Part shown: positions 1-64,000 of the stretch, in pieces
Layout: every line of letters begins with the position of its first letter
Numbering within the stretch: the stretch's first letter is position 1
Source of the DNA: Sipunculus nudus
Lineage: Eukaryota > Annelida > Sipuncula > Golfingiida > Sipunculidae
DNA: 64,000 nucleotides
Assembly: GCA_026874595.1 (NCBI GenBank)
Contig: CM049318.1
Span: forward strand, 26,376,956-26,440,955
Direction: 5' to 3'
Position numbers and translations under genes: made by a program
Notes under the pieces: model-generated
Seen by the model: only the letters and a program-made list of their open reading frames with translations
Told to the model about the DNA's origin: nothing
Databases searched by the model: none

Positions 1-591
1 GTTATTTGCAATATTTTTAAGTTCAATATTTCATGAATATACAATATCCCAAGGGGAAATAATCAAATATTGCGTAACTCTAATTTTAATTTTAAGTTTA
101 ATGTAAGCTATATTTTCTCTTTAAGATACTTCGAAAATGTTATAGTAAACTCGAAATAAGTAAGGGCATAGAATGAGAATCTGTTTTATTTTATATACGC
201 AACACTATCCAAAAAGAAGACCTTACTCTGTTATACTCTTAGCCCATTCCTCAATTTATAAAAGGGTTCCAAGTGTAACTGCAAAGTAAGGCTCAAATCT
301 TTGCATTTCATTTCTTACTATTATTTTCACTATCTAACTGTAAAGTTTAAAAAAAATTACTATACCATGCTCTCTCCTCATCCTTTATGTATTCACTGAT
401 CCTCCGCTCATTTTTGCACAGGCATTCTACAAAGACTGAGATTTGAACAGTGTACAGCATCTTATGAATATTCAACTACGCACCAACTAAATTAAGACTT
501 GTCATTCTCTTTTTAACTGTCATTCTTATAAACATGCTTGACGATAACACATAAAAATAAACTCCTCTTTTTTACATCAGAAATACTACAA

Positions 592-603
592 CATCTGCAG
601 ATG
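592..603. other. Central 12-bp palindrome CATCTGCAGATG (class A example)
   Basis: Perfect palindrome containing a PstI site and two E-box-like CANNTG words. It is present mid-monomer in class A; in class B one base changes it to CATCTGCAAATG, so the palindrome is lost. Confidence 0.75.
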
Positions 604-824
604 AACAAATGTGCCACAGTTTTAGTATAGTTAAATGTTTGATCGAGATTGCGTACTTCCAGGAATGTGAATAAAAGAATACGTAATGAGCATTTCGTAA
701 AGATGACAATTAACCTCAGTTTCATGTTTGATCCCGTTTTCATGCCACTCAATTAATCGCTCAAATTCGAATATGATAATATCAGAAGATCCAAACCATC
801 TATATAGCACCAAATGTAAAAAAT

Positions 825-888
825 GTTACTTCTGCTTATTTGGTCAAATCCGTATGGCGATCAAAAGAGTAGTGTACTCTTTCATTAT
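825..888. other. 64-bp A/B-invariant block with a perfect hairpin (example in M1)
   Basis: Segment from GTTACTTCTGC to TTTCATTAT reads the same in nearly all A and B monomers, although the flanks of both classes differ at many positions. It contains the inverted repeat AAAGAGTA-GTG-TACTCTTT at 864-882 (8-bp arms, 3-bp loop). The same block recurs once per monomer, for example at 1861-1924 in M2 with one change. A protein-binding site, a cruciform-forming site or simple homogenisation by gene conversion are all possible; no function is shown by sequence. Confidence 0.7.
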
Positions 889-1021
889 ATGCCAAAAGAA
901 CATATTGGATTGACCGAGCAAGCAGACAACATAACATTTGATTAATCAGATATTGCATTTTTCTGTTATTCTGTCAAGACGACATAAAAATTCACATGTA
1001 ATTCCATTAGGCATTTTTCAA

Positions 1022-1033
1022 CATCTGCAGATG
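1022..1033. other. Terminal 12-bp palindrome CATCTGCAGATG (all classes)
   Basis: The same palindrome sits immediately before the monomer start in essentially every copy, so class A monomers carry it twice (430 bp apart here) and class B once. PstI cutting would therefore give a ladder near 1 kb plus class-A-specific subfragments. Confidence 0.8.
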
Positions 1034-3105: not shown

Positions 3106-4143
3106 GTTATTTGCAATATTTTTAAGTTCAATATTTCATGAATATACAATATCCCAAGGAGAAATAATCAAATATTGCGTAACTCTAATTTTAATTTTAA
3201 GTTTAATGTAAGCTATTTTTTCTATTTAAGATACTTCGAAAATGTTATAGTAAACTCGAAATAAGTAAGGGCATAGAATGAGAATCTGTTTTATTTAATA
3301 TACGCCACACTATCCAAAAAGAAGACCTTACTCTGTTATACTCTTAGCCCATTTCTCAATTTATAAAAGGGTTCCAAGTGTAACTGCAAGGTAAGGCTCA
3401 AATCTTTGCATTTCATTTCTTACTATTATTTTCACTATCTAACTGTAAAGTTTGACAAAAAATTACTATACCATGCTCTCTCCTCATCCTTTAGTGTATT
3501 CACTGATCCTCCGCTTATTTTTGCACAGGCATTCTACAAAGACTGAGATTTGAACAGTGTACAGCACAGCATCTCACGAATATTCAACTACGCACCAACT
3601 AAATTAAGACTTGTCATTTTTTTTTGAATGTCTTTCTAATAAACATGCTTGACGATAACACATAAAAAATAACCTCCTCTTTTTTACATCAGAAATACTA
3701 CATCTGCAGATGAACAAATGTGCCACAGTTTTAGTAGTTGAATGTTTGATCGAGATTGCGTACTTCCAGGAATGTGAATAAAAGAATACGTAATGAGCAT
3801 TTCGTAAAGATGACAATTAACCTCAGTTTCATGTTTGATCCCGTTTTAATGCCACTCAATTAATCGCTCAAATTCGAATATGATAATATCAGAAGATCCA
3901 AACCATCTATATAGCACCAAATTTTAAAAAATGTTACTTCTGCTTATTTGGTCAAATCCGTATGGCGATCAAAAGAGTAGTGTACTCTTTCATTATATGC
4001 CAAAAGAACATATTGGATTGACCGAGCAAGCAGACAACATAACATTTGATTAATCAGATATTGCATTTTTCTGTTATTCTGTCAAGACGACATAAAAATT
4101 CACATGTAATTCCATTAGGCATTTTTCAACATCTGCAGATGAA
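3106..4143. repeat. Monomer M4, class A, CACAG-insertion subtype
   Basis: Class A carrying a 5-bp tandem duplication (ACAGCACAGC at 3561-3570) and ATTTTAAAAAATG in place of ATGTAAAAAATG near 3921. Both tracers recur in M6, M8, M21 and M29 only. Confidence 0.93.
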
Positions 4144-5181
4144 GTTATTTGCAATATTTTAAAGTTGAAAATTTGACGAATATACCATATCCCAAGGGGG
4201 AATGAATCAAATATTGCGTAACTCTACTTTTAATTTAAATTTAACGTAAGCTATATTTTCTATTTTAAAATACTTCGAAAATGTTATAGTTAACCCGAAA
4301 TAAGTAAGGGCATAGAATCAGAATCTGTTTTTTTTTTCATATACGCAACACTTTCCAAAAAGAAGACCTTACTCTGTTGTACTCTTAACCCATTCCTCAA
4401 TTTATTAAACGGTTACAGGTGAAACTGCAAAGAACGGCTCGATTCTGTGCATTTCATTTCTTACTATTATTTTCACTATCTAAGTGTTAAGTTTAAAAAA
4501 TTTACTATACCATGCTCTCTCCTCATCGTTTATTTATTCACTGATCCTCCGCTCATTATCGCACAGGTATTCTACAAAGACTGAGATTTGAACAGTGTAC
4601 AGCATCTCACGAATATTCAACTACGCACCAACTAAATTAAGACTTGTCATTCCTTTTTTAAATGTCTTTCTAATAAACATGCTTGACGATATCACATAAA
4701 AATAAACTCCTCATTTTTACATCAGAAATACTACAACATCTGCAAATGAACAAATGTGCCACAGTTTTAGTACTTGAATATTCGATCGAGATTGCGTAAT
4801 TCCTGGAGAGTGAATAAAAGATTACGTAATGAGCATTTCGTAAAAAGGAAAATTAATCTCAGTTTCATGTTTGATCCCGTTTTTCATGACACTCAAACAA
4901 TCGCTCAAATTCGAATATGATCAAATCAGAGGAACCAAACAATCTATATTGAACCAAATGTAAAAAAAATGTTACTTCTGCTTATTTGGTCAAATCCGTA
5001 TGGCGATCAAAAGAGTAGTGTACTCTTTCATTATGTGCCAAACGAACATATTGGATTGACCGAGCAAGCAGACTACATTACATTTGATGAATCAGATACA
5101 TTATTTTTCTGATATTCTGTCAAGACGACATTAAAATTCACAGTTAATTCCATGAGGCATTTTTCAACATCTGCAGATGAA
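4144..5181. repeat. Monomer M5, class B1
   Basis: Pure B1 with GAATCAGAATCTG, ATATTCGATCGAG, AAAAAGGAAAATTAATCTC and GACTACATTAC marks. The same combination occurs in M7, M9 and M22. Confidence 0.93.
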
Positions 5182-16579: not shown

Positions 16580-16806
16580 GTTATTTGCAATATTTTAAAG
16601 TTGAAAATTTGAAGAATATACCAAATCCCAAGGGGAAATGAATCAAATATTGCGTAACTCTACTTTTAATTTAAATTTAACGTAAGCTATATTTTCTATT
16701 TTAAAATACTTGGAAAATGTTATAGTTAACCCGAAATAAGTAAGGGCATAGAATGAGAATATGGTTTTTTTTCATATACGCAACACTATCCAAAAAGAAG
16801 ACCTTA

Positions 16807-16820
16807 CTCTGTTGTACTCT
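16807..16820. repeat. Left target-site duplication of the LINE insertion
   Basis: CTCTGTTGTACTCT, identical to 18699-18712. The following T may extend it to 15 bp, which cannot be separated from the T run of the element tail. Confidence 0.93.
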
Positions 16821-16856
16821 TTTTTTTTTTTTTATATTGTTTTTTTTTTTTATATT
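16821..16856 (-). other. LINE 3' tail, two copies of an A-run plus CAATAT unit
   Basis: On the minus strand the element ends CAATAT-A12-CAATAT-A13. The first T after 16820 may belong to the target. The repeated hexamer between A runs suggests slippage during reverse transcription or an inherently repetitive tail. Confidence 0.85.
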
Positions 16857-16857
16857 G

Positions 16858-16863
16858 TTTATT
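16858..16863 (-). promoter_or_regulatory. Candidate polyadenylation hexamer AATAAA
   Basis: TTTATT on the plus strand gives AATAAA on the element strand, immediately before the CAATAT/A-run tail. Such a close position is unusual for cleavage downstream of the hexamer, so the role is tentative. Confidence 0.4.
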
Positions 16864-16974
16864 ATAAAACAGGATATATACATGCATAATCTATACATAT
16901 GTATGCGTACACAATCAAGTAACCATACAAACAAATTAAATTTCTTATGAAATTCCAGCTCTAAACAAAGGAAA

Positions 16975-16985
16975 GGGGGGGGGGG
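16975..16985. repeat. G11 homopolymer in the LINE 3' UTR
   Basis: Eleven consecutive G on the plus strand, the only long G run in an otherwise AT-rich window; its length may be uncertain because homopolymers are error-prone. Confidence 0.85.
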
Positions 16986-17070
16986 ATGTTACATCAATAT
17001 GAAAGGGTAAAATTAAACTACCATGTATTATACAATAAATTAAAAACAAGAGCTTAATTCAAAATTTAAC

Positions 17071-17400
17071 TCACAACCAAAAAAACTTAATTCAAGGTTA
17101 AACTCCCATAAGGTATACAAAATTATCTAAATTTAAACAACACCACCTAATATTACAATCAAAATTAACCTCACAACCCAAAACTTAATTTCGAATCAAA
17201 ATCCCATAATATATGCAAAGTTATCAACATTTAACAAAACAATACAAATGTGAAATATACCAATAATCTTACTATGAAACTATTCTAAATTTAAACGGAC
17301 ATAATGTATGCAAAAGTATCCAAATAAAATATTAACATGACAAAACATAACTTAAAATGTATCCATAACCTTACTTTAGATTTAAACGGACAAATCTGAA
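17071..17400. repeat. Diverged tandem repeats of about 95-100 bp in the LINE 3' UTR
   Basis: TCACAACC recurs at 17071 and 17171, CATA(A)T/GTATGCAAA-like words at 17107, 17205 and 17300, and TTTAAACGGAC at 17290 and 17391. About three degenerate copies fit. Tandem repeats in 3' UTRs are known in several LINE families. Confidence 0.6.
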
Positions 17401-17926
17401 ATCAAACGTCTATTACTAATGGAAAGATTTGACAAACTAAAATCTTTAGAAAAAGGATGAAAACCATCTGAAATAAAAACATTAAAACATAATTACAGAA
17501 AATGTTTCCAGGACACAATCAACTTAAGAAACTCTTAATCAAAAAGCAAGGAAATGACATGATTTGTAGTTTTACAAATTAATCTAAATAATATTAAATA
17601 TCTTTTCACGAGTAAAATTGTATATCCCAGAAAGAAAACTAATTTAAATAAATAGACCAAAATTCAATTGTTAATAATCTGGATTGTTTTGTCTATACCT
17701 GCACATTTACAGGAACTGAAAAGGAACATGATAATAGAAAATAGAAAATTTAAACTGTATACATTATTCCCCTATAATACATAGTCCTGTTTAAATCTTA
17801 ATCCTTTTCAATTTGTATCTAGAGTAATTTAAAATCGACTAAAATAAACTAAAATTGCCTATATTAATTTACAATCTTTCTCTTCATAATATTAATTTAA
17901 ACTATACTGTCATATCTAGAGTTACA

Positions 17927-18698
17927 TCAAACTTTTAAAGTCAAAACATTATCATCTACATCGCATAATGCACTGTTCTGGCACCAAAGATCTTTAAATA
18001 TCTTAAACCTCTGTTCACCACTACGTTTACTATAGATATATTCTTCCGTTATCCCATTTCTAACCGACGCATTAAAATAGCTCAAAATATTCAACTGTAT
18101 TGAATTTAATCTTTTGTTTCGATTCAACCACAATACATATTTTCCAGTATATAACAAAAAGTCTAACAGTAGAATGCACTTATTTGATAACTCCTTCCAC
18201 CTATGACTGAAACCAAAACAAAGAGTAAACATATTAAGCATAACCTTCTTTCCTGCTACTCGATAAAATAAGTCTTTCACAGACTCCCAAAATTTCTGCG
18301 CAGTTACACAATCTACAAAAACATGCAAATTACCCTCTGGTTTACCACATACATCGCATAGATTAGATATAACAATTTTACTCCTATGCAAATACACCAT
18401 GGAGGGAAGTACAAAATGTAAAAATTTCCAGTTCATATCAAGATGAAGTCTGTCGTTTAACTTTTTATAACAGCCAGTAAAAATATGTTTGGCCTCTAAA
18501 TGCTTGTTAAATATAGAGCGCCACCTATCGACACACTTCGGACTTTTTGTTGTTAACAAGTACCCATACAAAGTTTTCAGTTTAAATTTCGTATGATGCA
18601 AAATTTCATCTTTATCTTGTTTTATACCATAATAATAAACATAACCTGAATCTCTCCCTCTTCTCAATTCCGGTATCCAACTCTGTAGAATATTTTCT
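17927..18698 (-). pseudogene. LINE ORF2 C-terminal fragment with CCHC zinc-knuckle (zf-RVT-like)
   Basis: The open frame runs on the minus strand to a TGA at 17929-17927. Upstream it continues for about ten codons into satellite sequence, so those first residues (MRNGLRVQQ, with a TTG start) belong to the target and not to the element. Element-encoded residues are about 10 to 266 of that frame. Visible motifs: C124-x2-C127-x7-H135-x4-C140, the CCHC pattern of the zinc-binding domain downstream of the reverse transcriptase in many LINE ORF2 proteins, followed by VDC...FWESV and a GKYVLWLNRNKR stretch (about 195-206) typical of the same region. The catalytic reverse-transcriptase and endonuclease parts are absent, so it is a nonfunctional remnant. 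The frame has no internal stop, which suggests a fairly young insertion. No promoter is expected. Confidence 0.85.
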
Positions 18699-18712
18699 CT
18701 CTGTTGTACTCT
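18699..18712. repeat. Right target-site duplication of the LINE insertion
   Basis: CTCTGTTGTACTCT, identical to 16807-16820, followed directly by the rest of monomer M17 (TAGCCCATTCC). The same sequence occurs once, uninterrupted, at 20768-20781 in M19. Confidence 0.93.
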
Positions 18713-45397: not shown

Positions 45398-46514
45398 GTT
45401 ATTTGCATTATTTTAAAGTTGAAAATTTGACGAATATACCATATCCCAAGGGGGAATGAATCAAATATTGCGTAACTCTACTTTTAATTTAAATTTAAGT
45501 TCAATATTTCATTAATATACAATATCCCAAGGGGAAATAATCAAATATTGCGTAACTCTACTTTTAATTTAAATTTAACGTAAGCTATATTTTCTATTTT
45601 AAAATACTTCGAAATTGTTAGTTAACCCGAAATAAGTCCGGACATAGAATGAGAATCCGGGTTTTTTTATATAAGCAACACTATCCAAAAGGAAGGCCTT
45701 ACTCTGTTATACTCTTAGCCCATTCCTCAATTTATAAAAGGGTTCCAAGTGTAACTGCAAAGTAAGGCTCAAATCTTTGCATTTCATTTCTTACTATTAT
45801 TTTCACTATCTAACTGTAAAGTTTAAAAAAAAATTACTATACCATGCTCTCTCCTCATCCTTTAGTGTATTCACTGATCCTCCGCTTATTTTTGCACAGG
45901 CATTCTACAAAGACTGAGAATTGAACAGTGTACAGCATCTCATGAATATTCAACTACGCACCAACTAAATTAAGACTTGTCATTCCTATTTTAAATGTCT
46001 TTCTAATAAACATGCTTGACGATATCACATAAAAATAAACTCCTCATTTTTACATCAGAAATACTACAACATCTGCAAATGAACAAATGTGCCACCGTTT
46101 TAGTAGTTGAATGTTTGATCGAGATTGCGTAATTCCTGGAGAGTGAATAATAGATTACGTAATGAGCATTTCGTAAACAGGAAAATTAACCTCAGTTTCA
46201 TGTTTGATCCCGTTTTTCATGACACTCAAACAATCGCTCAAATTCGAATATGATCAAATCAGAGGAACCAAACAATCTATATTGGACCAAATGTAAAAAA
46301 AATGTTACTTCTGCTTATTTGGTCAAATCCGTATGGCGATCAAAAGAGTAGTGTACTCTTTCATCATATGCCAAAAGAACATATTGGATTGACCGAGCAA
46401 GCAGACAACATAACATTTGATTAATCAGATATTGCATTTTTCTGTTATTCTGTCAAGACGACATAAAAATTCACATGTAATTCCATTAGGCATTTTTCAA
46501 CATCTGCAGATGAA
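45398..46514. repeat. Monomer M43, chimeric B with 80-bp insertion
   Basis: 1,117 bp. An A-type 80-bp segment is inserted at 45499-45578. Then B2 (AAGTCCGGACATAG, GAATCCGGG), A between about 45735 and 45950, B again, and an A tail (CATCATATGCC). ATTGGACC near 46282 is a tracer seen again in M53 and M56. Confidence 0.92.
45499..45578. repeat. 80-bp partial duplication in M43
   Basis: Begins with the class A head (GTTCAATATTTC) joined to the B word AAATTTAA and ends at the next AAATTTAA, so the join shares TTTAA between partners. Equivalent insertions lie at 51775-51854 and 55983-56062. Confidence 0.9.
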
Positions 46515-47548
46515 GTTATTTGCAATATTTTAAAGTTGAAAATTTGACGAATATACCATATTCCAAGGGGAAATGAATCAAATATTGCGTGACTCTACTT
46601 TTAATTTAAATTTAACGTAAGCTATATTTTATATTTTAAAATACTTCAAAATTGTTAGTTAACCCGAAATAAGTAAGGACATAGAATGAGAATCCGGGTT
46701 TTTTTTATATACGCAACACTATCCAAAAAGAAGGCCTTACTCTGTTATACTCTTAGCCCATTCCTCAATTTATTAAACGGTTACAGGTGAAACTGCAAAG
46801 AACGGCTCAAATCTGTGCATTTCATTTCTTACTATTATTTTCACTATCTAAGTGTTAAGTTTAAAAAATTTACTATACCATGCTCTCTCCTCATCGTTTA
46901 TTTATTCACTGATCCTCCGCTCGTTATCGCACAGGTATTCTACAAAGACTGAGATTTGAACAGTGTACAGCATCTCACGAATATTCAACTACGCACCAAC
47001 TAAATTAAGACTTGTCATTCCTATTTTAAATGTCTTTCTAATAAACATGCTTGACGATATCACATAAAAATAAACTCCTCATTTTTACATCAGAAATACT
47101 ACAACATCTGCAAATGAACAAATGTGCCACAGTTTTAGTAGTTGAATGTTTGATCGAGATTGCGTAATTCCTGGAGAGTGAATAATAGATTACGTAATGA
47201 GCATTTCGTAAACAGGAAAATTAACCTCAGTTTCATGTTTGATCCCGTTTTTCATGACACTCAAATAATCGCTCAAATTCGAATATGATCAAATCAGAGG
47301 AACAAAACAATCTATATTGAACCAAATGTAAAAAAATGTTACTTCTGCTTATTTGGTCAAATCCGTATGGCGATCAAAACAGTAGTGTACTCTTTCATTA
47401 TGTGCCAAACGAACATATTGGATTGACCGAGCAAGCAGACAACATTACATTTGATTAATCAGATACATTATTTTTCTGATATTGTGTCAAAACGACATTA
47501 AAATTCACAGTTTATTCCATCAGGCACTTTTCAACATCTGCAGATGAA
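46515..47548. repeat. Monomer M44, class B2
   Basis: B2 with CATATTCCAAGGGG, GCGTGACTC, CTTCAAAATTG and GATATTGTGTCAAAACG; M54 and M57 carry the same set. CAAAACAGTAGTG near 47375 changes one hairpin arm. Confidence 0.93.
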
Positions 47549-48579
47549 GTTATTCGCAATATTTTTAAGTTCAATATTTCATGAATATACAATATCCCAA
47601 GGGGAAATAATCAAATATTGCGTAACTCTAATTTTAATTTTAAGTTTAATGTAAGCTATATTTTCTTTTTAAGATACTTCGAAAATGTTATAGTAAACTC
47701 GAAAAAAGTAAGGGCATAGAATGAGAATCTGTTTTATTTTATATACGCAACACTATCCAAAAAGAAGACCTTACTCTGTTATACTCTTAGCCCATTCCTC
47801 AATTTATAAAAGGGTTCCAAGTGTAACTGCAAAGTAAGGCTCAAATCTTTGCATTTCATTTCTTACTATTATTTTCACTATCTAACTGTAAAGTTTAAAA
47901 AAAAATTACTATACCATGCTCTCTCCTCATCCTTTAGTGTATTCACTGATCCTCCGCTTATTTTTGCACAGGCATTCTACAAAGACTGAGATTTGAACAG
48001 TGTACAGCATCTCATGAATATTCAACTACGCACCAACTAAATTAAGACTTGTCATTCTCTTTTTAACTGTCATTCTAATAAACATGCTTGACGATAACAC
48101 ATAAAAATAACCTCCTCTTTTTACATCAGAAATACTACATCTGCAGATGAACAAATGTGCCACAGTTTTAGTAGTTGAATGTTTGATCGAGATTGCGTAC
48201 TTCCAGGAATGTGAATAAAAGAATACGTAATGAGCATTTCGTAAAGATGACAATTAACCTCAGTTTCATGTTTGATCCCGTTTTAATGCCACTCAATTAA
48301 TCGCTCAAATTCGAATATGATAATATCAGAAGATCCAAACCATCTATATAGCACCAAATGTAAAAAATGTTACTTCTGCTTATTTGGTCAAATCCGTATG
48401 GCGATCAAAAGAGTAGTGTACTCTTTCATTATATGCCAAAAGAACATATTGGATTGACCGAGCAAGCAGACAACATAACATTTGATTAATCAGATATTGC
48501 ATTTTTCTGTTATTCTGTCAAGACGACATAAAAATTCACATGTAATTCCATTAGGCATTTTTCAACATCTGCAGATGAA
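47549..48579. repeat. Monomer M45, class A
   Basis: A with head TTATTCGCAATATT and CTCGAAAAAAGTAAG; close copies are M55 and M58. Confidence 0.93.
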
Positions 48580-49607
48580 ATTATTTGCAATATTTTAAAG
48601 TTGAAAATTTGACGAATATACCATATCCCAAGGGGGAATGAATCAAATATTGCGTAACTCTACTTTTAATTTAAATTTAACGTAAGCTATATTTTATATT
48701 TTAAAATACTTCGAAATTGTTAGTTAACCCGAAATAAGTAAGGACATAGAATGAGAATCCGGGTTTTTTTTATATACGCAACACTATCCAAAAATAAGGC
48801 CTTACTCTGTTATACTCTTAGCCCATTCCTCAATTTATTAAACGGTTACAGGTGAAACTGCAAAGAACGGCTCAAATCTGTGCATTTCATTTCTTACTAT
48901 TATTTTCACTATCTAAGTGTTAAGTTTAAAAAATTTACTATACCATGCTCTCTCCTCATCGTTTATTTATTCACTGATCCTCCGCTCGTTATCGCACAGG
49001 TATTCTACAAAGACTGAGATTTGAACAGTGTACAGCATCTCATGAATATTCAACTACGCACCAACTAAATTAAGACTTGTCATTCTCTTTTTAACTGTCA
49101 TTCTAATAAACATGCTTGACGATAACACATAAAAATAACCTCCTCTTTTTACATGAGAAATACTACATCTGCAGATGAACAAATGTGCCACAGTTTTAGT
49201 AGTTGAATGTTTGATCGAGATTGCGTACTTCCAGGAATGTGAATAAAAGAATACGTAATGAGCATTTCGTAAAGATGACAATTAACCTCAGTTTCATGTT
49301 TGATCCCGTTTTAATGCCACTCAATTAATCGCTCAAATTCGAATATGATAATATCAGAAGATCCAAACCATCTATATAGCACCAAATGTAAAAAATGTTA
49401 CTTCTGCTTATTTGGTCAAATCCGTATGGCGATCAAAAGAGTAGTGTACTCTTTCATTATATGCCAAAAGAACATATTGGATTGACCGAGCAATCAGACA
49501 ACATAACATTTGATTAATCAGATATTGCATTTTTCTGTTATTCTGTCAAGACGACATAAAAATTCACATGTAATTCCATTAGGCATTTTTCAACATCTGC
49601 AGATGAA
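48580..49607. repeat. Monomer M46, chimera B then A
   Basis: B2 to about 49020, then A to the end, switching in the conserved stretch around ATTCTACAAAGACTGAG. Starts ATTATTTGC instead of GTTATTTGC. Copies: M56 (first three quarters) and M59. Confidence 0.92.
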
Positions 49608-50641
49608 GTTATTTGCAATATTTTAAAGTTGAAAATTTGACGAATATACCATATCCCAAGGGGGAATGAATCAAATATTGCGTAACTCTACTTTTAATTT
49701 AAATTTAACGTAAGCTATATTTTCTATTTTAAAATACTTCGAAATTGTTAGTTAACCCGAAATAAGTAAGGACATAGAATGAGAATCCGGGTTTTTTTAT
49801 ATACGCAACACTATCCAAAAAGAAGGCCTTACTCTGTTATACTCTTAGCCCATTCCTCAATTTATTAAACGGTTACAGGTGAAACTGCAAAGAACGGCTC
49901 AAATCTGTGCATTTCATTTCTTACTATTATTTTCACTATCTAAGTGTTAAGTTTAAAAAATTTACTATACCATGCTCTCTCCTCATCGTTTATATATTCA
50001 CTGATCCTCCGCTCGTTATCGCACAGGTATTCTACAAAGACTGAGATTTGAACAGTGTACAGCATCTCACGAATATTCAACTACGCACCAACTAAATTAA
50101 GACTTGTCATTCCTATTTTAAATGTCTTTCTAATAAACATGCTTGACGATAACACATAAAAATAACCTCCTTTTTTTTACATCAGAAATACTACAACATC
50201 TGCAAATGAACAAATGTGCCACAGTTTTAGTAGTTGAATGTTTGATCGAGATTGCGTAATTCCTGGAGAGTGAATAATAGATTACGTAATGAGCATTTCG
50301 TAAACAGGAAAATTAACCTCAGTTTCATGTTTGATCCCGTTTTTCATGACACTCAAATAATCGCTCAAATTCGAATATGATCAAATCAGAGGAACCAAAC
50401 AATCTATTTTGAACCAAATGTAAAAAAAATGTTACTTCTGCTTATTTGGTCAAATCCGTATGGCGATCAAAAGAGTAGTGTACTCTTTCATTATGTGCCA
50501 AACGAACATATTGGATTGACCAAGCAAGCAGACAACATTACATTTGATTAATCAGATACATTATTTTTCTGATATTCTGTCAAGACCACATTAAAATTCA
50601 CAGTTTATTCCATCAGGCATTTTTCAACATCTGCAGATGAA
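49608..50641. repeat. Monomer M47, class B2 with A patch
   Basis: B2 carrying the ACCTCC A patch near 50150 and ATCTATTTTGAACC; M60 is the same type at +13,580. Confidence 0.93.
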
Positions 50642-51673
50642 GTTATTTGCAATATTTTTAAGTTCAATATTTCATGAATATACAATATCCCAGGGGGAAA
50701 TAATCAAATATTGCGTAACTCTAATTTTAATTTTAAGTTTAATGTAAGCTATATTTTCTTTTTAAGATACTTCGAAAATGTTATAGTAAACTCGAAATAA
50801 GTAAGGGCATAGAATGAGAATCTGTTTTATTTTATATACGCAACACTATCCAAAAAGAAGACCTTACTCTGTTATACTCTTAGCCCATTCCTCAATTTAT
50901 AAAAGGGTTCCAAGTGTAACTGCAAAGTAAGGCTCAAATCTTTGCATTTCATTTCTTACTATTATTTTCACTATCTTACTGTAAAGTTTAAAAAAAAATT
51001 ACTATACCATGCTCTCTCCTCATCCTTTAGTGTATTCACTGATCCTCCGCTTATTTTTGCACAGGCAATCTACAAAGACTGAGATTTGAACAGTGTACAG
51101 CATCTCATGAATATTCAACTACGCACCAACTAAATTAAGACTTGTCATTCTCTTTTTAACTGTCATTCTAATAAACATGCTTGACGATAACACATAAAAA
51201 TAACCTCCTCTTTTTTACATCAGAAATACTACATCTGCAGATGAACAAATGTGCCACAGTTTTAGCAGTTGAATGTTTGATCGAGATTGCGTACTTCCAG
51301 GAATGTGAATAAAAGAATACGTAATGAGCATTTCGTAAAGATGACAATTAACCTCAGTTTCATGTTTGATCCCGTTTTAATGCCACTCAATTAATCGCTC
51401 AAATTCGAATATGATAATATCAGAAGATCCAAACCATCTATATAGCACCAAATGTAAAAAATGTTACTTCTGCTTATTTGGTCAAATCCGTATGGCGATC
51501 AAAAGAGTAGTGTACTCTTTCATTATATGCCAAAAGAACATATTGGATTGACCGAGCAAGCAGACAACATACCATTTGATTAATCATATATTGCATTTTT
51601 CTGTTATTCTGTCAAGACGACATAAAAATTCACATGTAATTCCATTAGGCATTTTTCAACATCTGCAGATGAA
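50642..51673. repeat. Monomer M48, class A
   Basis: Class A; private CCCAGGGGG near 50689, GGCAATCTAC near 51064, AACATACCATTTG near 51566. Confidence 0.93.
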
Positions 51674-52787
51674 GTTATTTGCATTATTTTAAAGTTGAAA
51701 ATTTGACGAATATACCATATCCCAAGGCGGAATGAATCAAATATTGCGTAACTCTACTTTTAATTTAAATTTAAGTTCAATATTTCATTAATATACAATA
51801 TCCCAAGGGGAAATAATCAAATATTGCGTAACTCTACTTTTAATTTAAATTTAACGTAAGCTATATTTTCTATTTTAAAATACTTCGAAATTGTTAGTTA
51901 ACCCGAAATAAGTAAGGACATAGAATGAGAATCCGGGTTTTTTTATATACGCAACACTATCCAAAAAGAAGGCCTTACTCTGTAATACTCTTAGCCCATT
52001 CCTCAATTTATTAAACGGTTACAGGGGAAAGTGCAAAGAACGGCTCAAATCTGTGCATTTCATTTCTTACTATTATTTTCACTATCTAAGTGTTAAGTTT
52101 AAAAAATTTACTATACCATGCTCTCTCCTCATCGTTTATTTATTCACTGATCCTCCGCTCGTTATCGCACAGGTATTCTACAAAGACTGAGATTTGAACA
52201 GTGTACAGCATCTCACGAATATTCAACTACGCACCAACTAAATTAAGACTTGTCATTCCTATTTTAAATGTCTTTCTAATAAACATGCTTGACGATATCA
52301 CATAAAAATAAACTCCTCATTTTTACATCAGAAATACTACAACATCTGCAAATGAACAAATGTGCCACAGTTTTAGTAGTTGAATGTTTGATCGAGATTG
52401 CGTAATTCCTGGAGAGTGAATAATAGATTACGTAATGAGCATTTCGTAAACAGGAAAATTAACCTCAGTTTCATGTTTGATCCCGTTTTTCATGACACTC
52501 AAATAATCGCTCAAATTCGAATATGATCAAATCAGAGGAACCAAACAATCTATATTGAACCAAATGTAAAAAAAATGTTACTTCTGCTTATTTGGTCAAA
52601 TCCGTATGGCGATCAAAAGAGTAGTGTACTCTTTCATTATGTGCCAAACGAACATATTGGATTGACCGAGCAAGCAGACAACATTACATTTGATTAATCA
52701 GATACATTATTTTTCTGATATTCTGTCAACACGACATTAAAATTCACAGTTTATTCCATCAGGCACTTTTCAACATCTGCAGATGAA
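51674..52787. repeat. Monomer M49, class B2 with 80-bp insertion
   Basis: 1,114 bp with the insertion at 51775-51854. Unlike M43 it stays B through the middle and has a B tail; private CCAAGGCGG near 51723 and ACAGGGGAAAGTG near 52021. Confidence 0.92.
51775..51854. repeat. 80-bp partial duplication in M49
   Basis: Same join as in M43 and M53, in a monomer whose remaining sequence differs, so the insertion is older than the large duplication linking M43 and M53. Confidence 0.9.
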
Positions 52788-53817
52788 GTTATTTGCAATA
52801 TTTTTAAGTTCAATATTTCATGAATATACAATATCCCAAGGGGAAATAATCAAATATTGCGTAACTCTAATTTTAATTTTAAGTTTAATGTAAGCTATAT
52901 TTTCTTTTAAGATACTTCGAAAATGTTATAGTAAACTTGAAAAAAGTAAGGGCATAGAATGAGAATCTGTTTTATTTTATATACGCAACACTATCCAAAA
53001 AGAAGACCTTACTCTGTTATACTCTTAGCCCATTCCTCAATTTATAAAAGGGTTCCAAGTGTAACTGCAAAGTAAGGCTCAAATCTTTGCATTTCATTTC
53101 TTACTATTATTTTCACTATCTAACTGTAAAGTTTAAAAAAAAATTACTATACCATGCTCTCTCCTCATCCTTTAGTGTATTCACTGATCCTCCGCTTATT
53201 TTTGCACAGGCATTCTACAAAGACTGAGAATTGAACAGTGTACAGCATCTCATGAATATTCAACTACGCACCAACTAAATTAAGACTTGTCATTCTCTTT
53301 TTAACTGTCATTCTAATAAACATGCTTGACGATAACACATAAAAATAACCTCCTCTTTTTACATCAGAAATACTACATCTGCAGATGAACAAATGTGCCA
53401 CAGTTTTAGTAGTTGAATGTTTGATCGAGATTGCGTACTTCCAGGAATGTGAATAAAAGAATACGTAATGAGCATTTCGTAAAGATGACAATTAACCTCA
53501 GTTTCATGTTTGATCCCGTTTTAATGCCACTCAATTAATCGCTCAAATTCGAATATGATAATATCAGAAGATCCAAACCATCTATATAGCACAAAATGTA
53601 AAAAATGTTACTTCTGCTTATTTGGTCAAATCCGTATGGCGATCAAAAGAGTAGTGTACTCTTTCATTATATGCCAAAAGAACATTTTGGATTGACCGAG
53701 CAAGCAGACAACATAACATTTGATTAATCAGATATTGCATTTTTCTGTTATTCTGTCAAGACGACATAAAAATTCACATGTAATTCCATTAGGCATTTTT
53801 CAACATCTGCAGATGAA
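52788..53817. repeat. Monomer M50, class A
   Basis: A; counterpart of M40 at +10,484 (TTTTCTTTTAAG, AAACTTGAAAAAAG) but without its internal B tract. GACTGAGAATTG near 53222 shared with M43. Confidence 0.92.
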
Positions 53818-54850
53818 GTTATTTGCAATATTTTAAAGTTGAAAATTTGACGAATATACCATATCCCAAGGGGGAATGAAGCAAATATTGCGTAACTCTA
53901 CTTTTAATTTAAATTTAACGTAAGCTATATTTTCTATTTTAAAATACTTCGAAATTGTTAGTTAACCCGAAATAAGTAAGGACATAGAATGAGAATCCGG
54001 GTTTTTTTATATACGCAACACTATCCAAAAAGAAGGCCTTACTCTGTTATACTCTTAGCCCATTCCTCAATTTATTAAACGGTTACAGGTGAAACTGCAA
54101 AGAACGGCTCAAATCTGTGCATTTCATTTCTTACTATTATTTTCACTATCTAAGTGTTAAGTTTAAAAAATTTACTATACCATGCTCTCTCCTCATCGTT
54201 TATATATTCACTGATCCTCCGCTCGTTATCGCACAGGTATTCTACAAAGACTGAGATTTGAACAGTGTACAGCATCACACGAATATTCAACTACGCACCA
54301 ACTAAATTAAGACTTGTCATTCCTATTTTAAATGTCTTTCTAATAAACATGCTTGACGATAACACATAAAAATAACCTCCTTTTTTTACATCAGAAATAC
54401 TACAACATCTGCAAATGAACAAATGTGCAACAGTTTTAGTAGTTGAATGTTTGATCGAGATTGCGTAATTCCTGGAGAGTGAATAATAGATTACGTAATG
54501 AGCATTTCGTAAACAGGAAAATTAACCTCAGTTTCATGTTTGATCCCGTTTTTCATGACACTCAAATAATCGCTCAAATTCGAATATGATCAAATCAGAG
54601 GAACCAAACAATCTATTTTGAACCAAATGTAAAAAAAATGTTACTTCTGCTTATTTGGTCAAATCCGTATGGCGATCAAAAGAGAAGTGTACTCTTTCAT
54701 TATGTGCCAAACGAACATATTGGATTGACCAAGCAAGCAGACAACATTACATTTGATTAATCAGATACATTATTTTTCTGATATTCTGTCAAGACGACAT
54801 TAAAATTCACAGTTTATTCCATCAGGCATTTTTCAACATCTGCAGATGAA
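53818..54850. repeat. Monomer M51, class B2 with A patch
   Basis: Counterpart of M41 at +10,484, same length; private GGAATGAAGCAAAT near 53873. Confidence 0.93.
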
Positions 54851-55881
54851 GTTATTTGCAATATTTTTAAGTTCAATATTTCATGAATATACAATATCCC
54901 AAGGGGAAATAATCAAATATTGCGTAACTCTAATTTTAATTTTAAGTTTAATGTAAGCTATATTTTCTTTTTAAGATACTTCGAAAATGTTATAGTAAAC
55001 TCGAAATAAGTAAGGGCATAGAATGAGAATCTGTTTTATTTTATATACGCAACACTATCCAAAAAGAAGACCTTACTCTGTTATACTCTTAGGCCATTCC
55101 TCAATTTATAAAAGGGTTCCAAGTGTAACTGCAAAGTAAGGCTCAAATCTTTGCATTTCATTTCTTACTATTATTTTCACTATCTTACTGTAAAGTTTAA
55201 AAAAAAATTACTATACCATGCTCTCTCCTCATCCTTTAGTGTATTCACTGATCCTCCGCTTATTTTTGCAAAGGCATTCTACAAAGACTGAGATTTGAAC
55301 AGTGTACAGCATCTCATGAATATTCAACTACGCACCAACTCAATTAAGACTTGTCATTCTCTTTTTAACTGTCATTCTAATAAACATGCTTGACGATAAC
55401 ACATAAAAATAACCTCCTCTTTTTACATGAGAAATACTACATCTGCAGATGAACAAATGTGCCACAGTTTTAGTAGTTGAATGTTTGATCGAGATTGCGT
55501 ACTTCCAGGAGAGTGAATAAAAGAATACGTAATGAGCATTTCGTAAAGATGACAATTAACCTCAGTTTCATGTTTGATCCCGTTTTAATGCCACTCAATT
55601 AATCGCTCAAATTCGAATATGATAATATCAGAAGATCCAAACCATCTATATAGCACCAAATGTAAAAAATGTTACTTCTGCTTATTTGGTCAAATCCGTA
55701 TGGCGATCAAAAGAGTAGTGTACTCTTTCATTATATGCCAAAAGAACATATTGGATTGACCGAGCAAGCAGACAACATAACATTTGATTAATCAGATATT
55801 GCATTTTTCTGTTATTCTGTCAAGACGACATAAAAATTCACATGTAATTCCATTAGGCATTTTTCAACATCTGCAGATGAA
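54851..55881. repeat. Monomer M52, class A
   Basis: Counterpart of M42 at +10,484; reads the same at all marks checked. Confidence 0.93.
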
Positions 55882-56998
55882 GTTATTTGCATTATTTTAA
55901 AGTTGAAAATTTGACGAATATACCATATCCCAAGGGGGAATGAATCAAATATTGCGTAACTCTACTTTTAATTTAAATTTAAGTTCAATATTTCATTAAT
56001 ATACAATATCCCAAGGGGAAATAATCAAATATTGCGTAACTCTACTTTTAATTTAAATTTAACGTAAGCTATATTTTCTATTTTAAAATACTTCGAAATT
56101 GTTAGTTAACCCGAAATAAGTCCGGACATAGAATGAGAATCCGGGTTTTTTTATATAAGCAACACTATCCAAAAGGAAGGCCTTACTCTGTTATACTCTT
56201 AGCCCATTCCTCAATTTATAAAAGGGTTCCAAGTGTAACTGCAAAGTAAGGCTCAAATCTTTGCATTTCATTTCTTACTATTATTTTCACTATCTAACTG
56301 TAAAGTTTAAAAAAAAATTACTATACCATGCTCTCTCCTCATCCTTTAGTGTATTCACTGATCCTCCGCTTATTTTTGCACAGGCATTCTACAAAGACTG
56401 AGAATTGAACAGTGTACAGCATCTCATGAATATTCAACTACGCACCAACTAAATTAAGACTTGTCATTCCTATTTTAAATGTCTTTCTAATAAACATGCT
56501 TGACGATATCACATAAAAATAAACTCCTCATTTTTACATCAGAAATACTACAACATCTGCAAATGAACAAATGTGCCACCGTTTTAGTAGTTGAATGTTT
56601 GATCGAGATTGCGTAATTCCTGGAGAGTGAATAATAGATTACGTAATGAGCATTTCGTAAACAGGAAAATTAACCTCAGTTTCATGTTTGATCCCGTTTT
56701 TCATGACACTCAAACAATCGCTCAAATTCGAATATGATCAAATCAGAGGAACCAAACAATCTATATTGGACCAAATGTAAAAAAAATGTTACTTCTGCTT
56801 ATTTGGTCAAATCCGTATGGCGATCAAAAGAGTAGTGTACTCTTTCATCATATGCCAAAAGAACATATTGGATTGACCGAGCAAGCAGACAACATAACAT
56901 TTGATTAATCAGATATTGCATTTTTCTGTTATTCTGTCAAGACGACATAAAAATTCACATGTAATTCCATTAGGCATTTTTCAACATCTGCAGATGAA
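55882..56998. repeat. Monomer M53, chimeric B with 80-bp insertion
   Basis: Counterpart of M43 at +10,484, including AAGTCCGGACATAG, ATTGGACC and CATCATATGCC. Confidence 0.93.
55983..56062. repeat. 80-bp partial duplication in M53
   Basis: Exactly 10,484 bp after the M43 insertion, carried along by the large duplication. Confidence 0.9.
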
Positions 56999-58032
56999 GT
57001 TATTTGCAATATTTTAAAGTTGAAAATTTGACGAATATACCATATTCCAAGGGGAAATGAATCAAATATTGCGTGACTCTACTTTTAATTTAAATTTAAC
57101 GTAAGCTATATTTTATATTTTAAAATACTTCAAAATTGTTAGTTAACCCGAAATAAGTAAGGACATAGAATGAGAATCCGGGTTTTTTTTATATACGCAA
57201 CACTATCCAAAAAGAAGGCCTTACTCTGTTATACTCTTAGCCCATTCCTCAATTTATTAAACGGTTACAGGTGAAACTGCAAAGAACGGCTCAAATCTGT
57301 GCATTTCATTTCTTACTATTATTTTCACTATCTAAGTGTTAAGTTTAAAAAATTTACTATACCATGCTCTCTCCTCATCGTTTATTTATTCACTGATCCT
57401 CCGCTCGTTATCGCACAGGTATTCTACAAAGACTGAGATTTGAACAGTGTACAGCATCTCACGAATATTCAACTACGCACCAACTAAATTAAGACTTGTC
57501 ATTCCTATTTTAAATGTCTTTCTAATAAACATGCTTGACGATATCACATAAAAATAAACTCCTCATTTTTACATCAGAAATACTACAACATCTGCAAATG
57601 AACAAATGTGCCACAGTTTTAGTAGTTGAATGTTTGATCGAGATTGCGTAATTCCTGGAGAGTGAATAATAGATTACGTAATGAGCATTTCGTAAACAGG
57701 AAAATTAACCTCAGTTTCATGTTTGATCCCGTTTTTCATGACACTCAAATAATCGCTCAAATTCGAATATGATCAAATCAGAGGAACAAAACAATCTATA
57801 TTGAACCAAATGTAAAAAAATGTTACTTCTGCTTATTTGGTCAAATCCGTATGGCGATCAAAAGAGTAGTGTACTCTTTCATTATGTGCCAAACGAACAT
57901 ATTGGATTGACCGAGCAAGCAGACAACATTACATTTGATTAATCAGATACATTATTTTTCTGATATTGTGTCAAAACGACATTAAAATTCACAGTTTATT
58001 CCATCAGGCACTTTTCAACATCTGCAGATGAA
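56999..58032. repeat. Monomer M54, class B2
   Basis: Counterpart of M44 (+10,484) and near-copy of M57; keeps the intact hairpin where M44 has CAAAACAG. Confidence 0.93.
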
Positions 58033-59063
58033 GTTATTCGCAATATTTTTAAGTTCAATATTTCATGAATATACAATATCCCAAGGGGAAATAATCAAAT
58101 ATTGCGTAACTCTAATTTTAATTTTAAGTTTAATGTAAGCTATATTTTCTTTTTAAGATACTTCGAAAATGTTATAGTAAACTCGAAAAAAGTAAGGGCA
58201 TAGAATGAGAATCTGTTTTATTTTATATACGCAACACTATCCAAAAAGAAGACCTTACTCTGTTATACTCTTAGCCCATTCCTCAATTTATAAAAGGGTT
58301 CCAAGTGTAACTGCAAAGTAAGGCTCAAATCTTTGCATTTCATTTCTTACTATTATTTTCACTATCTAACTGTAAAGTTTAAAAAAAAATTACTATACCA
58401 TGCTCTCTCCTCATCCTTTAGTGTATTCACTGATCCTCCGCTTATTTTTGCACAGGCATTCTACAAAGACTGAGATTTGAACAGTGTACAGCATCTCATG
58501 AATATTCAACTACGCACCAACTAAATTAAGACTTGTCATTCTCTTTTTAACTGTCATTCTAATAAACATGCTTGACGATAACACATAAAAATAACCTCCT
58601 CTTTTTACATCAGAAATACTACATCTGCAGATGAACAAATGTGCCACAGTTTTAGTAGTTGAATGTTTGATCGAGATTGCGTACTTCCAGGAATGTGAAT
58701 AAAAGAATACGTAATGAGCATTTCGTAAAGATGACAATTAACCTCAGTTTCATGTTTGATCCCGTTTTAATGCCACTCAATTAATCGCTCAAATTCGAAT
58801 ATGATAATATCAGAAGATCCAAACCATCTATATAGCACCAAATGTAAAAAATGTTACTTCTGCTTATTTGGTCAAATCCGTATGGCGATCAAAAGAGTAG
58901 TGTACTCTTTCATTATATGCCAAAAGAACATATTGGATTGACCGAGCAAGCAGACAACATAACATTTGATTAATCAGATATTGCATTTTTCTGTTATTCT
59001 GTCAAGACGACATAAAAATTCACATGTAATTCCATTAGGCATTTTTCAACATCTGCAGATGAA
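58033..59063. repeat. Monomer M55, class A
   Basis: Counterpart of M45 (+10,484), including TTATTCGCAATATT at its head. Confidence 0.93.
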
Positions 59064-60094
59064 ATTATTTGCAATATTTTAAAGTTGAAAATTTGACGAA
59101 TATACCATATCCCAAGGGGGAATGAATCAAATATTGCGTAACTCTACTTTTAATTTAAATTTAACGTAAGCTATATTTTATATTTTAAAATACTTCGAAA
59201 TTGTTAGTTAACCCGAAATAAGTAAGGACATAGAATGAGAATCCGGGTTTTTTTTATATACGCAACACTATCCAAAAATAAGGCCTTACTCTGTTATACT
59301 CTTAGCCCATTCCTCAATTTATTAAACGGTTACAGGTGAAACTGCAAAGAACGGCTCAAATCTGTGCATTTCATTTCTTACTATTATTTTCACTATCTAA
59401 GTGTTAAGTTTAAAAAATTTACTATACCATGCTCTCTCCTCATCGTTTATTTATTCACTGATCCTCCGCTCGTTATCGCACAGGTATTCTACAAAGACTG
59501 AGATTTGAACAGTGTACAGCATCTCATGAATATTCAACTACGCACCAACTAAATTAAGACTTGTCATTCTCTTTTTAACTGTCATTCTAATAAACATGCT
59601 TGACGATAACACATAAAAATAACCTCCTCTTTTTACATCAGAAATACTACATCTGCAGATGAACAAATGTGCCACAGTTTTAGTAGTTGAATGTTTGATC
59701 GAGATTGCGTACTTCCAGGAATGTGAATAAAAGAATACGTAATGAGCATTTCGTAAAGATGACAATTAACCTCAGTTTCATGTTTGATCCCGTTTTTCAT
59801 GACACTCAAACAATCGCTCAAATTCGAATATGATCAAATCAGAGGAACCAAACAATCTATATTGGACCAAATGTAAAAAAAATGTTACTTCTGCTTATTT
59901 GGTCAAATCCGTATGGCGATCAAAAGAGTAGTGTACTCTTTCATCATATGCCAAAAGAACATATTGGATTGACCGAGCAAGCAGACAACATAACATTTGA
60001 TTAATCAGATATTGCATTTTTCTGTTATTCTGTCAAGACGACATAAAAATTCACATGTAATTCCATTAGGCATTTTTCAACATCTGCAGATGAA
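59064..60094. repeat. Monomer M56, chimera B-A-B-A with a fusion junction
   Basis: Matches M46 up to about 59771-59796, then becomes the tail of M43/M53 (TTTTTCATGACACTC, ATTGGACC, CATCATATGCC). This is the join that starts a tandem second copy of the 3.1-kb block M54-M56. Confidence 0.92.
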
Positions 60095-61129
60095 GTTATT
60101 TGCAATATTTTAAAGTGGAAAATTTGACGAATATACCATATTCCAAGGGGAAATGAATCAAATATTGCGTGACTCTACTTTTAATTTAAATTTAACGTAA
60201 GCTATATTTTATATTTTAAAATACTTCAAAATTGTTAGTTAACCCGAAATAAGTAAGGACATAGAATGAGAATCCGGGTTTTTTTTATATACGCAACACT
60301 ATCCAAAAAGAAGGCCTTACTCTGTTATACTCTTAGCCCATTCCTCAATTTATTAAACGGTTACAGGTGAAACTGCAAAGAACGGCTCAAATCTGTGCAT
60401 TTCATTTCTTACTATTATTTTCACTATCTAAGTGTTAAGTTTTAAAAATTTACTATACCATGCTCTCTCCTCATCGTTTATTTATTCACTGATCCTCCGC
60501 TCGTTATCGCACAGGTATTCTACAAAGACTGAGATTTGAACAGTGTACAGCATCTCACGAATATTCAACTACGCACCAACTAAATTAAGACTTGTCATTC
60601 CTATTTTAAATGTCTTTCTAATAAACATGCTTGACGATATCACATAAAAATAAACTCCTCATTTTTACATCAGAAATACTACAACATCTGCAAATGAACA
60701 AATGTGCCACAGTTTTAGTAGTTGAATGTTTGATCGAGATTGCGTAATTCCTGGAGAGTGAATAATAGATTACGTAATGAGCATTTCGTAAACAGGAAAA
60801 TTAACCTCAGTTTCATGTTTGATCCCGTTTTTCATGACACTCAAATAATCGCTCAAATTCGAATATGATCAAATCAGAGGAACCAAACAATCTATATTGA
60901 ACCAAATGTAAAAAAAATGTTACTTCTGCTTATTTGGTCAAATCCGTATGGCGATCAAAAGAGTAGTGTACTCTTTCATTATGTGCCAAACGAACATATT
61001 GGATTGACCGAGCAAGCAGACAACATTACATTTGATTAATCAGATACATTATTTTTCTGATATTGTGTCAAAACGACATTAAAATTCACAGTTTATTCCA
61101 TCAGGCACTTTTCAACATCTGCAGATGAA
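60095..61129. repeat. Monomer M57, class B2
   Basis: Copy of M54 at +3,096; head reads GTGGAAAATTT and GTTTTAAAAATTT replaces GTTTAAAAAATTT near 60438. Confidence 0.93.
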
Positions 61130-62159
61130 GTTATTTGCAATATTTTTAAGTTCAATATTTCATGAATATACAATATCCCAAGGGGAAATAATCAAATATT
61201 GCGTAACTCTAATTTTAATTTTAAGTTTAATGTAAGCTATATTTTCTTTTTAAGATACTTCGAAAATGTTATAGTAAACTCGAAAAAAGTAAGGGCATAG
61301 AATGAGAATCTGTTTTATTTTATATACGCAACACTATCCAAAAAGAAGACCTTACTCTGTTATACTCTTAGCCCATTCCTCAATTTATAAAAGGGTTCCA
61401 AGTGTAACTGCAAAGTAAGGCTCAAATCTTTGCATTTCATTTCTTACTATTATTTTCACTATCTAACTGTAAAGTTTAAAAAAAATTACTATACCATGCT
61501 CTCTCCTCATCCTTTAGTGTATTCACTGATCCTCCGCTTATTTTTGCACAGGCATTCTACAAAGACTGAGATTTGAACAGTGTACAGCATCTCATGAATA
61601 TTCAACTACGCACCAACTAAATTAAGACTTGTCATTCTCTTTTTAACTGTCATTCTAATAAACATGTTTGACGATAACACATAAAAATAACCTCCTCTTT
61701 TTACATCAGAAATACTACATCTGCAGATGAACAAATGTGCCACAGTTTTAGTAGTTGAATGTTTGATCGAGATTGCGTACTTCCAGGAATGTGAATAAAA
61801 GAATACGTAATGAGCATTTCGTAAAGATGACAATTAACCTCAGTTTCATGTTTGATCCCGTTTTAATGCCACTCAATTAATCGCTCAAATTCGAATATGA
61901 TAATATCAGAAGATCCAAACCATCTATATAGCACCAAATGTAAAAAATGTTACTTCTGCTTATTTGGTCAAATCCGTATGGCGATCAAAAGAGTAGTGTA
62001 CTCTTTCATTATATGCCAAAAGAACATATTGGATTGACCGAGCAAGCAGACAACATAACATTTGATTAATCAGATATTGCATTTTTCTGTTATTCTGTCA
62101 AGACGACATAAAAATTCACATGTAATTCCATTAGGCATTTTTCAACATCTGCAGATGAA
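61130..62159. repeat. Monomer M58, class A
   Basis: Copy of M55 at +3,097; head TTATTTGC rather than TTATTCGC, and AACATGTTTGACG near 61662 is private. Confidence 0.93.
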
Positions 62160-63187
62160 ATTATTTGCAATATTTTAAAGTTGAAAATTTGACGAATATA
62201 CCATATCCCAAGGGGGAATGAATCAAATATTGCGTAACTCTACTTTTAATTTAAATTTAACGTAAGCTATATTTTATATTTTAAAATACTTCGAAATTGT
62301 TAGTTAACCCGAAATAAGTAAGGACATAGAATGAGAATCCGGGTTTTTTTTATATACGCAACACTATCCAAAAATAAGGCCTTACTCTGTTATACTCTTA
62401 GCCCATTCCTCAATTTATTAAACGGTTACAGGTGAAACTGCAAAGAACGGCTCAAATCTGTGCATTTCATTTCTTACTATTATTTTCACTATCTAAGTGT
62501 TAAGTTTAAAAAATTTACTATACCATGCTCTCTCCTCATCGTTTATTTATTCACTGATCCTCCGCTCGTTATCGCACAGGTATTCTACAAAGACTGAGAT
62601 TTGAACAGTGTACAGCATCTCATGAATATTCAACTACGCACCAACTAAATTAAGACTTGTCATTCTCTTTTTAACTGTCATTCTAATAAACATGCTTGAC
62701 GATAACACATAAAAATAACCTCCTCTTTTTACATCAGAAATACTACATCTGCAGATGAACAAATGTGCCACAGTTTTAGTAGTTGAATGTTTGATCGAGA
62801 TTGCGTACTTCCAGGAATGTGAATAAAAGAATACGTAATGAGCATTTCGTAAAGATGACAATTAACCTCAGTTTCATGTTTGATCCCGTTTTAATGCCAC
62901 TCAATTAATCGCTCAAATTCGAATATGATAATATCAGAAGATCCAAACCATCTATATAGCACCAAATGTAAAAAATGTTACTTCTGCTTATTTGGTCAAA
63001 TCCGTATGGCGATCAAAAGAGTAGTGTACTCTTTCATTATATGCCAAAAGAACATATTGGATTGACCGAGCAATCAGACAACATAACATTTGATTAATCA
63101 GATATTGCATTTTTCTGTTATTCTGTCAAGACGACATAAAAATTCACATGTAATTCCATTAGGCATTTTTCAACATCTGCAGATGAA
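62160..63187. repeat. Monomer M59, chimera B then A
   Basis: Copy of M46 with the full A tail that M56 lacks; starts ATTATTTGC. Confidence 0.93.
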
Positions 63188-64000
63188 GTTATTTGCAATA
63201 TTTTAAAGTTGAAAATTTGACGAATATACCATATCCCAAGGGGGAATGAATCAAATATTGCGTAACTCTACTTTTAATTTAAATTTAACGTAAGCTATAT
63301 TTTCTATTTTAAAATACTTCGAAATTGTTAGTTAACCCGAAATAAGTAAGGACATAGAATGAGAATCCGGGTTTTTTTATATACGCAACACTATCCAAAA
63401 AGAAGGCCTTACTCTGTTATACTCTTAGCCCATTCCTCAATTTATTAAACGGTTACAGGTGAAACTGCAAAGAACGGCTCAAATCTGTGCATTTCATTTC
63501 TTACTATTATTTTCACTATCTAAGTGTTAAGTTTAAAAAATTTACTATACCATGCTCTCTCCTCATCGTTTATATATTCACTGATCCTCCGCTCGTTATC
63601 GCACAGGTATTCTACAAAGACTGAGATTTGAACAGTGTACAGCATCTCACGAATATTCAACTACGCACCAACTAAATTAAGACTTGTCATTCCTATTTTA
63701 AATGTCTTTCTAATAAACATGCTTGACGATAACACATAAAAATAACCTCCTTTTTTTTACATCAGAAATACTACAACATCTGCAAATGAACAAATGTGCC
63801 ACAGTTTTAGTAGTTGAATGTTTGATCGAGATTGCGTAATTCCTGGAGAGTGAATAATAGATTACGTAATGAGCATTTCGTAAACAGGAAAATTAACCTC
63901 AGTTTCATGTTTGATCCCGTTTTTCATGACACTCAAATAATCGCTCAAATTCGAATATGATCAAATCAGAGGAACCAAACAATCTATTTTGAACCAAATG
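63188..64000. repeat. Monomer M60, class B2 with A patch, cut by the window end
   Basis: First 813 bp only. Same type as M47 at +13,580; the array continues past the window. Confidence 0.93.

Follow-up and report, generated by a model that had tools for sequence, protein, structure and literature searches.

A satellite array of Sipunculus nudus raises the question of whether the joints between tandem repeat units can be protected from recombination. The stretch of DNA analysed, hereafter the window, is 64,000 nucleotides long (C13:26376956-26440955, plus strand) and lies inside one satellite array on contig C13 of the S. nudus assembly. Its monomers fall into two classes, A and B, and the tail of one class is followed by the head of the other. 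We asked whether this tail-to-head rule reflects a property of the junction or a consequence of the way in which the array is rearranged and cut into units.

The assembly totals 1,426.5 Mb in 153 contigs, of which C13 represents 70.9 Mb, and the array spans ~0.74 Mb of C13 with an interruption of ~14 kb. An internal conserved box, searched for in the whole genome with at most three mismatches, gave 685 forward matches and 1 reverse match; among the matches listed, the first stood at 26,247,519 and none between 26,333,299 and 26,347,819. The satellite persisted at C13:26,986,955, and the junction core was absent from the 10-kb piece inspected at C13:26,990,956-27,000,955. Exact matches to the junction core numbered 508 on the forward strand and 0 on the reverse strand of the whole genome, and the 100 matches listed were all on C13. 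The single orientation and the C13-only matches listed suggest that the array is restricted to one chromosome. Below, the "A/B block" is the part of the array from C13:26,348,013 onward, which contains the window. The first satellite of this block seems, when read by eye, to start mid-monomer beside unrelated DNA (L001, ~position 6720).

As a separate observation on the same assembly, contigs C60, C61, C62, C66, C72, C74, C75, and C89 look bacterial and carry cox1, with scores of 418.8-420.4 bits over nine matches in a family search. C61 is 2.2 Mb long, and its cox1 shared no more than 58% identity with any of the 80 relatives listed from a bacterial collection. These contigs are perhaps symbionts or contamination. 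A short cox1 fragment on C5 was taken for a mitochondrial insertion.

Throughout the window the monomers are arranged in tandem, head-to-tail, and all in one direction:

1..64000, plus strand: satellite array of 60 monomers, mostly ~1,035 bp, of classes A and B, with the unit start set at GTTATTTGCAATATTTT

Fifty-five of the 60 monomers are intact at 1,028-1,041 bp, three measure 1,114-1,117 bp, M60 is cut by the window end, and M17 is 1,036 bp long once an inserted LINE is removed. Classes A and B are ~8% apart and mostly alternate; an alignment of the two consensus sequences, 1,044 columns long, shows differences in 98 columns, 81 of them through substitution. Tandem Repeats Finder, which could detect periods only up to 500, did not report the array. 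Neither tRNA genes in the 64-kb window nor Rfam families in window positions 1-20600 were found, and the satellite array is non-coding. The junction palindrome CATCTGCAGATG recurs within A monomers ~604 bp from their start, for instance near window positions 591-604, and this internal copy is perhaps the remnant of a shorter, older unit.

The monomers on which the argument turns are the following:

3106..5181, plus strand: example A-B dimer read from the class strings, M04 (A throughout) followed by M05 (B, with a B tail)
16580..19507, plus strand: M17, of class B, into which a non-LTR retrotransposon fragment (16820-18698) is inserted, with a target-site duplication of 13 bp
16820..18698, minus strand: LINE 3' fragment in M17, with a T-run at 16820 and a 270-aa frame containing a zf-RVT domain
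20541..21576, plus strand: M19, a multiple chimera with ~25 bp of B head, then A to column 152-185, a B body, and an A tail from 813-824
26760..29867, plus strand: M25-M28, from class painting
42304..63187, plus strand: segment with a period of 10 monomers, from a best lag of 10,484, the monomer spacing, and an identity run
45398..46514, plus strand: M43, a long monomer (1,117 bp) that opens with ~100 bp of B head, followed by a restart, several switches, and an A tail
51674..52787, plus strand: M49, a long monomer (1,114 bp) with a restart as in M43 and B from there to the end
55882..56998, plus strand: M53, a long monomer (1,117 bp) built like M43 and lying 10,484 bp downstream of it

The zf-RVT domain (PF13966) in the LINE frame scored 29.2 bits against a cut-off of 27.5 (E 1.5e-06), and the fragment is probably 5'-truncated. 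In the long monomers, the restart adds ~80 bp; in M43, as read by eye, the A head is entered near its base 20, at the shared letters TTTAA.

Class was assigned site by site ("painting"). We chose 78 diagnostic columns and used 76 of them after collapsing a 3-bp indel; leading partial monomers were excluded, one long monomer (26453736) that could not be split was treated whole, and the painted pieces contain no N. The 60 predicted monomer starts were recovered at the conserved head. As had been claimed, at the level of the class that directly adjoins the junction, an A tail led into a B head, or a B tail into an A head, at all 59 window junctions. From the final diagnostic site of the tail (column 1016) to the first one of the next head (column 17), class switched at none of the 59, whichever of the three settings was used. 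When the rule was read over the end stretches of monomers, as majority class over 150 columns, it stood at 56 of the 59 junctions and failed at three, namely, M18-M19, M42-M43, and M52-M53. The last two failed because the restart in M43 and M53 overwrote most of the first stretch in scoring. With the same majority reading, 137 of the 144 junctions in a 160-kb contiguous stretch alternated and 7 did not.

The chimeric character of the monomers, which the original prediction had put forward, was also apparent. M19 does begin with ~25 bp of B head and changes from B to A between alignment columns 23 and 26. M25 starts as A, becomes B at columns 429-514, and is A again after a second switch at 824-897. 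M26 and M27 stay B until they switch to A tails at 824-897, and M28 has both a B head and a B tail. The B-B-B runs thus proved to be chimeras as proposed, with B bodies and A tails in M26-M27 and M32-M33, each run being closed by a B-tailed monomer (M28 and M34). Hybrid monomers keep a normal length, M19 and M25 measuring 1,036 bp each.

An unbroken record over 59 junctions has to be read against the size of the target. At the junction, the zone without diagnostic markers covers 45 of the 1,044 columns. The window holds 29 switches in total, or 12 that are distinct by gap and direction, from which 1.25 or 0.52, respectively, are expected in the 45-column junction gap. Moreover, if a 45-column zone is slid along the monomer, it is free of switches in the window at 55% of positions, so an equally unbroken rule would appear at over half of the other cut points. 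If the cut were placed inside columns 429-514 or 824-897, the rule would fail 8 or 9 times in the window. The apparent rule depends on the cut point, and the break-free record of the window is unremarkable, being no more than chance.

We then searched the whole genome for junctions with 73-base patterns, allowing at most two mismatches. The matches comprised 291 A-to-B, 264 B-to-A, 8 A-to-A, and 8 B-to-B junctions, all forward; of the 571 scored, 555 alternate and 16 join the same class. The lists of A-to-A and B-to-B matches are complete, those of A-to-B and B-to-A matches give at most 100 places and may miss places on contigs other than C13; the 571 include a few left-part junctions and fall short of the ~617 suggested by the block length, and the unscored ones may hide more breaks. 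Twelve of the sixteen same-class places were fetched in ten pieces, two (26489922 and 26693788) lay in pieces already painted, and two (26321629 and 26533335) were seen by pattern only. Nine of the 571 (1.6%), eight of them painted, were clear breaks in the A/B block and belong to about four lineages:

C13:26566474, plus strand: two consecutive A monomers, all sites A but one; painted
C13:26618175, plus strand: A tail of a B-to-A chimera, then a whole A monomer; painted
C13:26904708, 26956423, 26980243, and 26982305, plus strand: four related copies of an A tail joined to a short A head; painted
C13:26489963 and 26520962, plus strand: B tail, then B head; painted
C13:26533376, plus strand: B-B junction, the third exact pattern match; pattern only

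The three B-B matches in the A/B block are identical across the 73-base pattern. The original prediction had held that the junction is never recombined out of register, and had named A-to-A or B-to-B junctions, at appreciable frequency in this or neighbouring segments of the array, as the observation that would speak against it. Such junctions do occur, and the nine clear ones in the same block contradict the claim.

The seven other same-class matches were left out of this count, four for mixed tails and three for lying in the left part of the array. At 26656535 and 26788141, A tails with a two-site B patch precede a B head, and the rule is kept. The place at 26705162 is ambiguous, since two A-type sites separate a B tract from the A head behind it, and that at 26693788 was called a break only at the lowest error setting. 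The matches at 26305254, 26307327, and 26321629 belong to the older left part; on the first two of these, which were painted, the A/B labels fit poorly.

A junction may be broken now and then and still be sheltered to some degree, and the distribution of switches along the monomer bears on this. The painted sample consisted of the 160-kb contiguous stretch, which includes the window, and nine 10-kb pieces, 50 kb apart and chosen blind to breaks; a tenth piece fell outside the array. In all, the sequence analysed amounted to under 40% of the array of ~700 monomers, the window included. It yielded 221 junction passages and 142 class switches, plus seven restarts in long monomers. The 150 columns on either side of the junction held 39 of the 142 switches, against 40.8 expected, and showed no depletion. 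In the 45-column junction gap, one switch was seen over the 221 passages, against 6.1 expected from all switches or 1.9 from the 44 distinct ones; under other error and rate settings, the count was one or two. The raw expectation amounts to 2.8% per junction, and the whole-genome figure of 9/571 is also below it. Copies of one and the same event inflate the raw counts. Only the gap figure, not the 150-column one, leans toward a shortage of switches, and a mild shortage at the junction may exist. Breakpoints depart from strict uniformity, since 22 switches cluster in the gap 429-514 and 16 in the gap 824-897. The junction zone is among the least variable 7% of 25-column zones, and the longest conserved zone of the monomer, columns 846-869, lies inside the gap 824-897 with its 16 switches.

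We compared these counts with a simulation in which the copies of an A-B dimer array exchanged sequence at offsets of whole monomers; the chance of a breakpoint rose in proportion to gap length, and the junction was unprotected. The offset distribution and the equal gain and loss were our choice. Each of 300 runs was stopped when neighbors shared class at 0.235 of sites (0.24 was reached on average). Simulated junctions were broken in 1.3% of cases (5-95%: 0.3-2.8%), against 1.6% observed. Break-free windows made up 61% of simulated 60-monomer windows and 52% of real 64-kb placements. Given the breaks elsewhere in the block, there is no strict junction protection; both the spread of switches and the simulation speak against strong protection.

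What, then, was the founding unit? In the 160-kb stretch, the same-class fraction was 0.235 at lag 1 vs 0.691 at lag 2. Mean identity among 145 monomers was 0.912, 0.952, 0.926, and 0.943 at lags 1 to 4, likeness being higher at even than at odd lags, and the contrast faded by lags 7-9. Larger periods were superimposed: best partners with at least 98.5% identity occurred most often at lag 13 (36), then at lag 2 (13) and lag 10 (13). In the window, M51-M55 repeat M41-M45 10,484 bp further along, at 98.5% identity or more, a 5-monomer run at lag 10 starting from C13:26420289. Past M45/M55, the two copies of the segment diverge, and M49 is long while M59 is not. These patterns suggest that an A-B dimer most likely founded the A/B block and that larger stretches were copied locally later.

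The left part of the array has another structure. In one 10-kb piece (C13:26249956-26259955), we found a unit of four monomers of 1,041, 1,017, 1,031, and 1,890 bp, ~4,979 bp in all. Three of them share 90-92% identity with A and equally with B; for the fourth, of 1,890 bp, the identity is ~81% to both. The 1,890-bp monomer seems to contain ~850 bp of foreign-looking DNA, with a partial copy one unit earlier. The proposal that the 2.07-kb dimer is ancestral agrees, for the A/B block, with the alternation and the lag-2 likeness; for the whole satellite it is not supported, since the left part, in the one 10-kb piece sampled, shows a different four-monomer unit.

From the sequence patterns, we consider it very probable that the block is a dimer-founded array reshaped by unequal exchange or conversion, with neither strict nor strong protection of the junction. 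An A-B dimer would first have been amplified into an array. Copies would then pair in the 1,035-bp register while displaced by whole monomers, allowing unequal exchange and conversion. An exchange between A and B at a homologous position x with an odd displacement would create one chimeric monomer that switches at x and leave the other joints untouched. The sequence "A tail then B head" would be retained automatically, because joints are unaffected unless x falls within the 45 columns around the cut point. The tail-to-head rule would accordingly hold for nearly any cut point, with breaks whose frequency scales roughly with the length of the marker-free zone. Repeated local duplication would spread chimeras with a B body and an A tail as runs and as repeats of ~10 and ~13 monomers.

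Nothing in the data requires junction protection, and the explanations that depart from this model fared as follows. A box made of the palindrome CATCTGCAGATG and its flanks might be closed to out-of-register recombination, with a bound protein as one conceivable shield; chimeras would then arise only inside monomers. The clean window junctions, the single gap switch against 6.1 expected by raw count, and the low variability around the junction fit such a shield. Its strict form is already contradicted by the nine breaks in the same block, the lack of depletion within 150 columns argues against it, and so do the 16 switches in the gap around the longest conserved zone; moreover, about one 64-kb window in two should be free of breaks. 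We regard shielding as very unlikely. A milder version, in which the 45-column junction box (the conserved palindrome and its flanks) is a cold spot of about two- to four-fold for A/B exchange and the rest of the monomer recombines freely, is improbable as well, if a shade less so.

Two further explanations question the record itself. Some or all same-class junctions could be assembly joins between near-identical repeats: stretches related at lags 10 and 13 are hard to assemble, and the sameness of the three B-B matches over 73 bases is compatible with such joins. Yet, the A tail with a short A head recurs at four places that differ at several letters, which a single misjoin would not give, and we find this explanation even less credible than shielding. 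Least plausible of all, to the point of being extremely unlikely, is a mixing of A and B monomer by monomer, with no dimer founder and with alternation arising secondarily. The B-B-B runs and an A-A pair speak for mixing, but 555 of 571 scored junctions alternate, and a random order would give a same-class fraction of about one half instead of the values observed at lags 1 and 2. We therefore retain the model of a dimer-founded array rearranged by displaced exchange.

In the open-licence literature, searched other than by species name, we found no paper that describes this 1,035-bp repeat, nor any match to a 1,035-bp PstI satellite. The unequal crossover model of Smith (1976) reportedly predicts periodic arrays and chimeric units without protecting any point. 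It is a general model and does not concern this satellite, with which it shares the periodic arrays and the chimeric units. The array analysed here is a clear dimer-based satellite with layered rearrangement, and as such it is useful for testing models of unequal exchange.

The closest likeness is to human alpha satellite. Its suprachromosomal families 1 and 2 consist of dimeric J1J2 and D1D2 arrays in which D1/D2 hybrid monomers occur, and in which the alternation is breached in places, for instance by a D1D1 dimer (PMC4496801). The S. nudus array likewise has two alternating classes organized as a dimer, higher-order amplification, hybrid monomers, and same-class breaches. Unlike alpha satellite, it has a monomer of ~1,035 bp, far from the ~171 bp that characterize alpha satellite, and it is seen on one contig; the comparison is one of organization. 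According to a review, hybrids usually keep the monomer length, and whether one is present depends on where the monomer is taken to start (PMC9549924). This start-site dependence is the same point as the cut-point dependence of the rule here. The array is an ordinary dimer-based satellite with hybrid monomers, a familiar kind of organization, and it illustrates how a structural rule of a satellite can look strict and yet follow from the cut point and the sample size.
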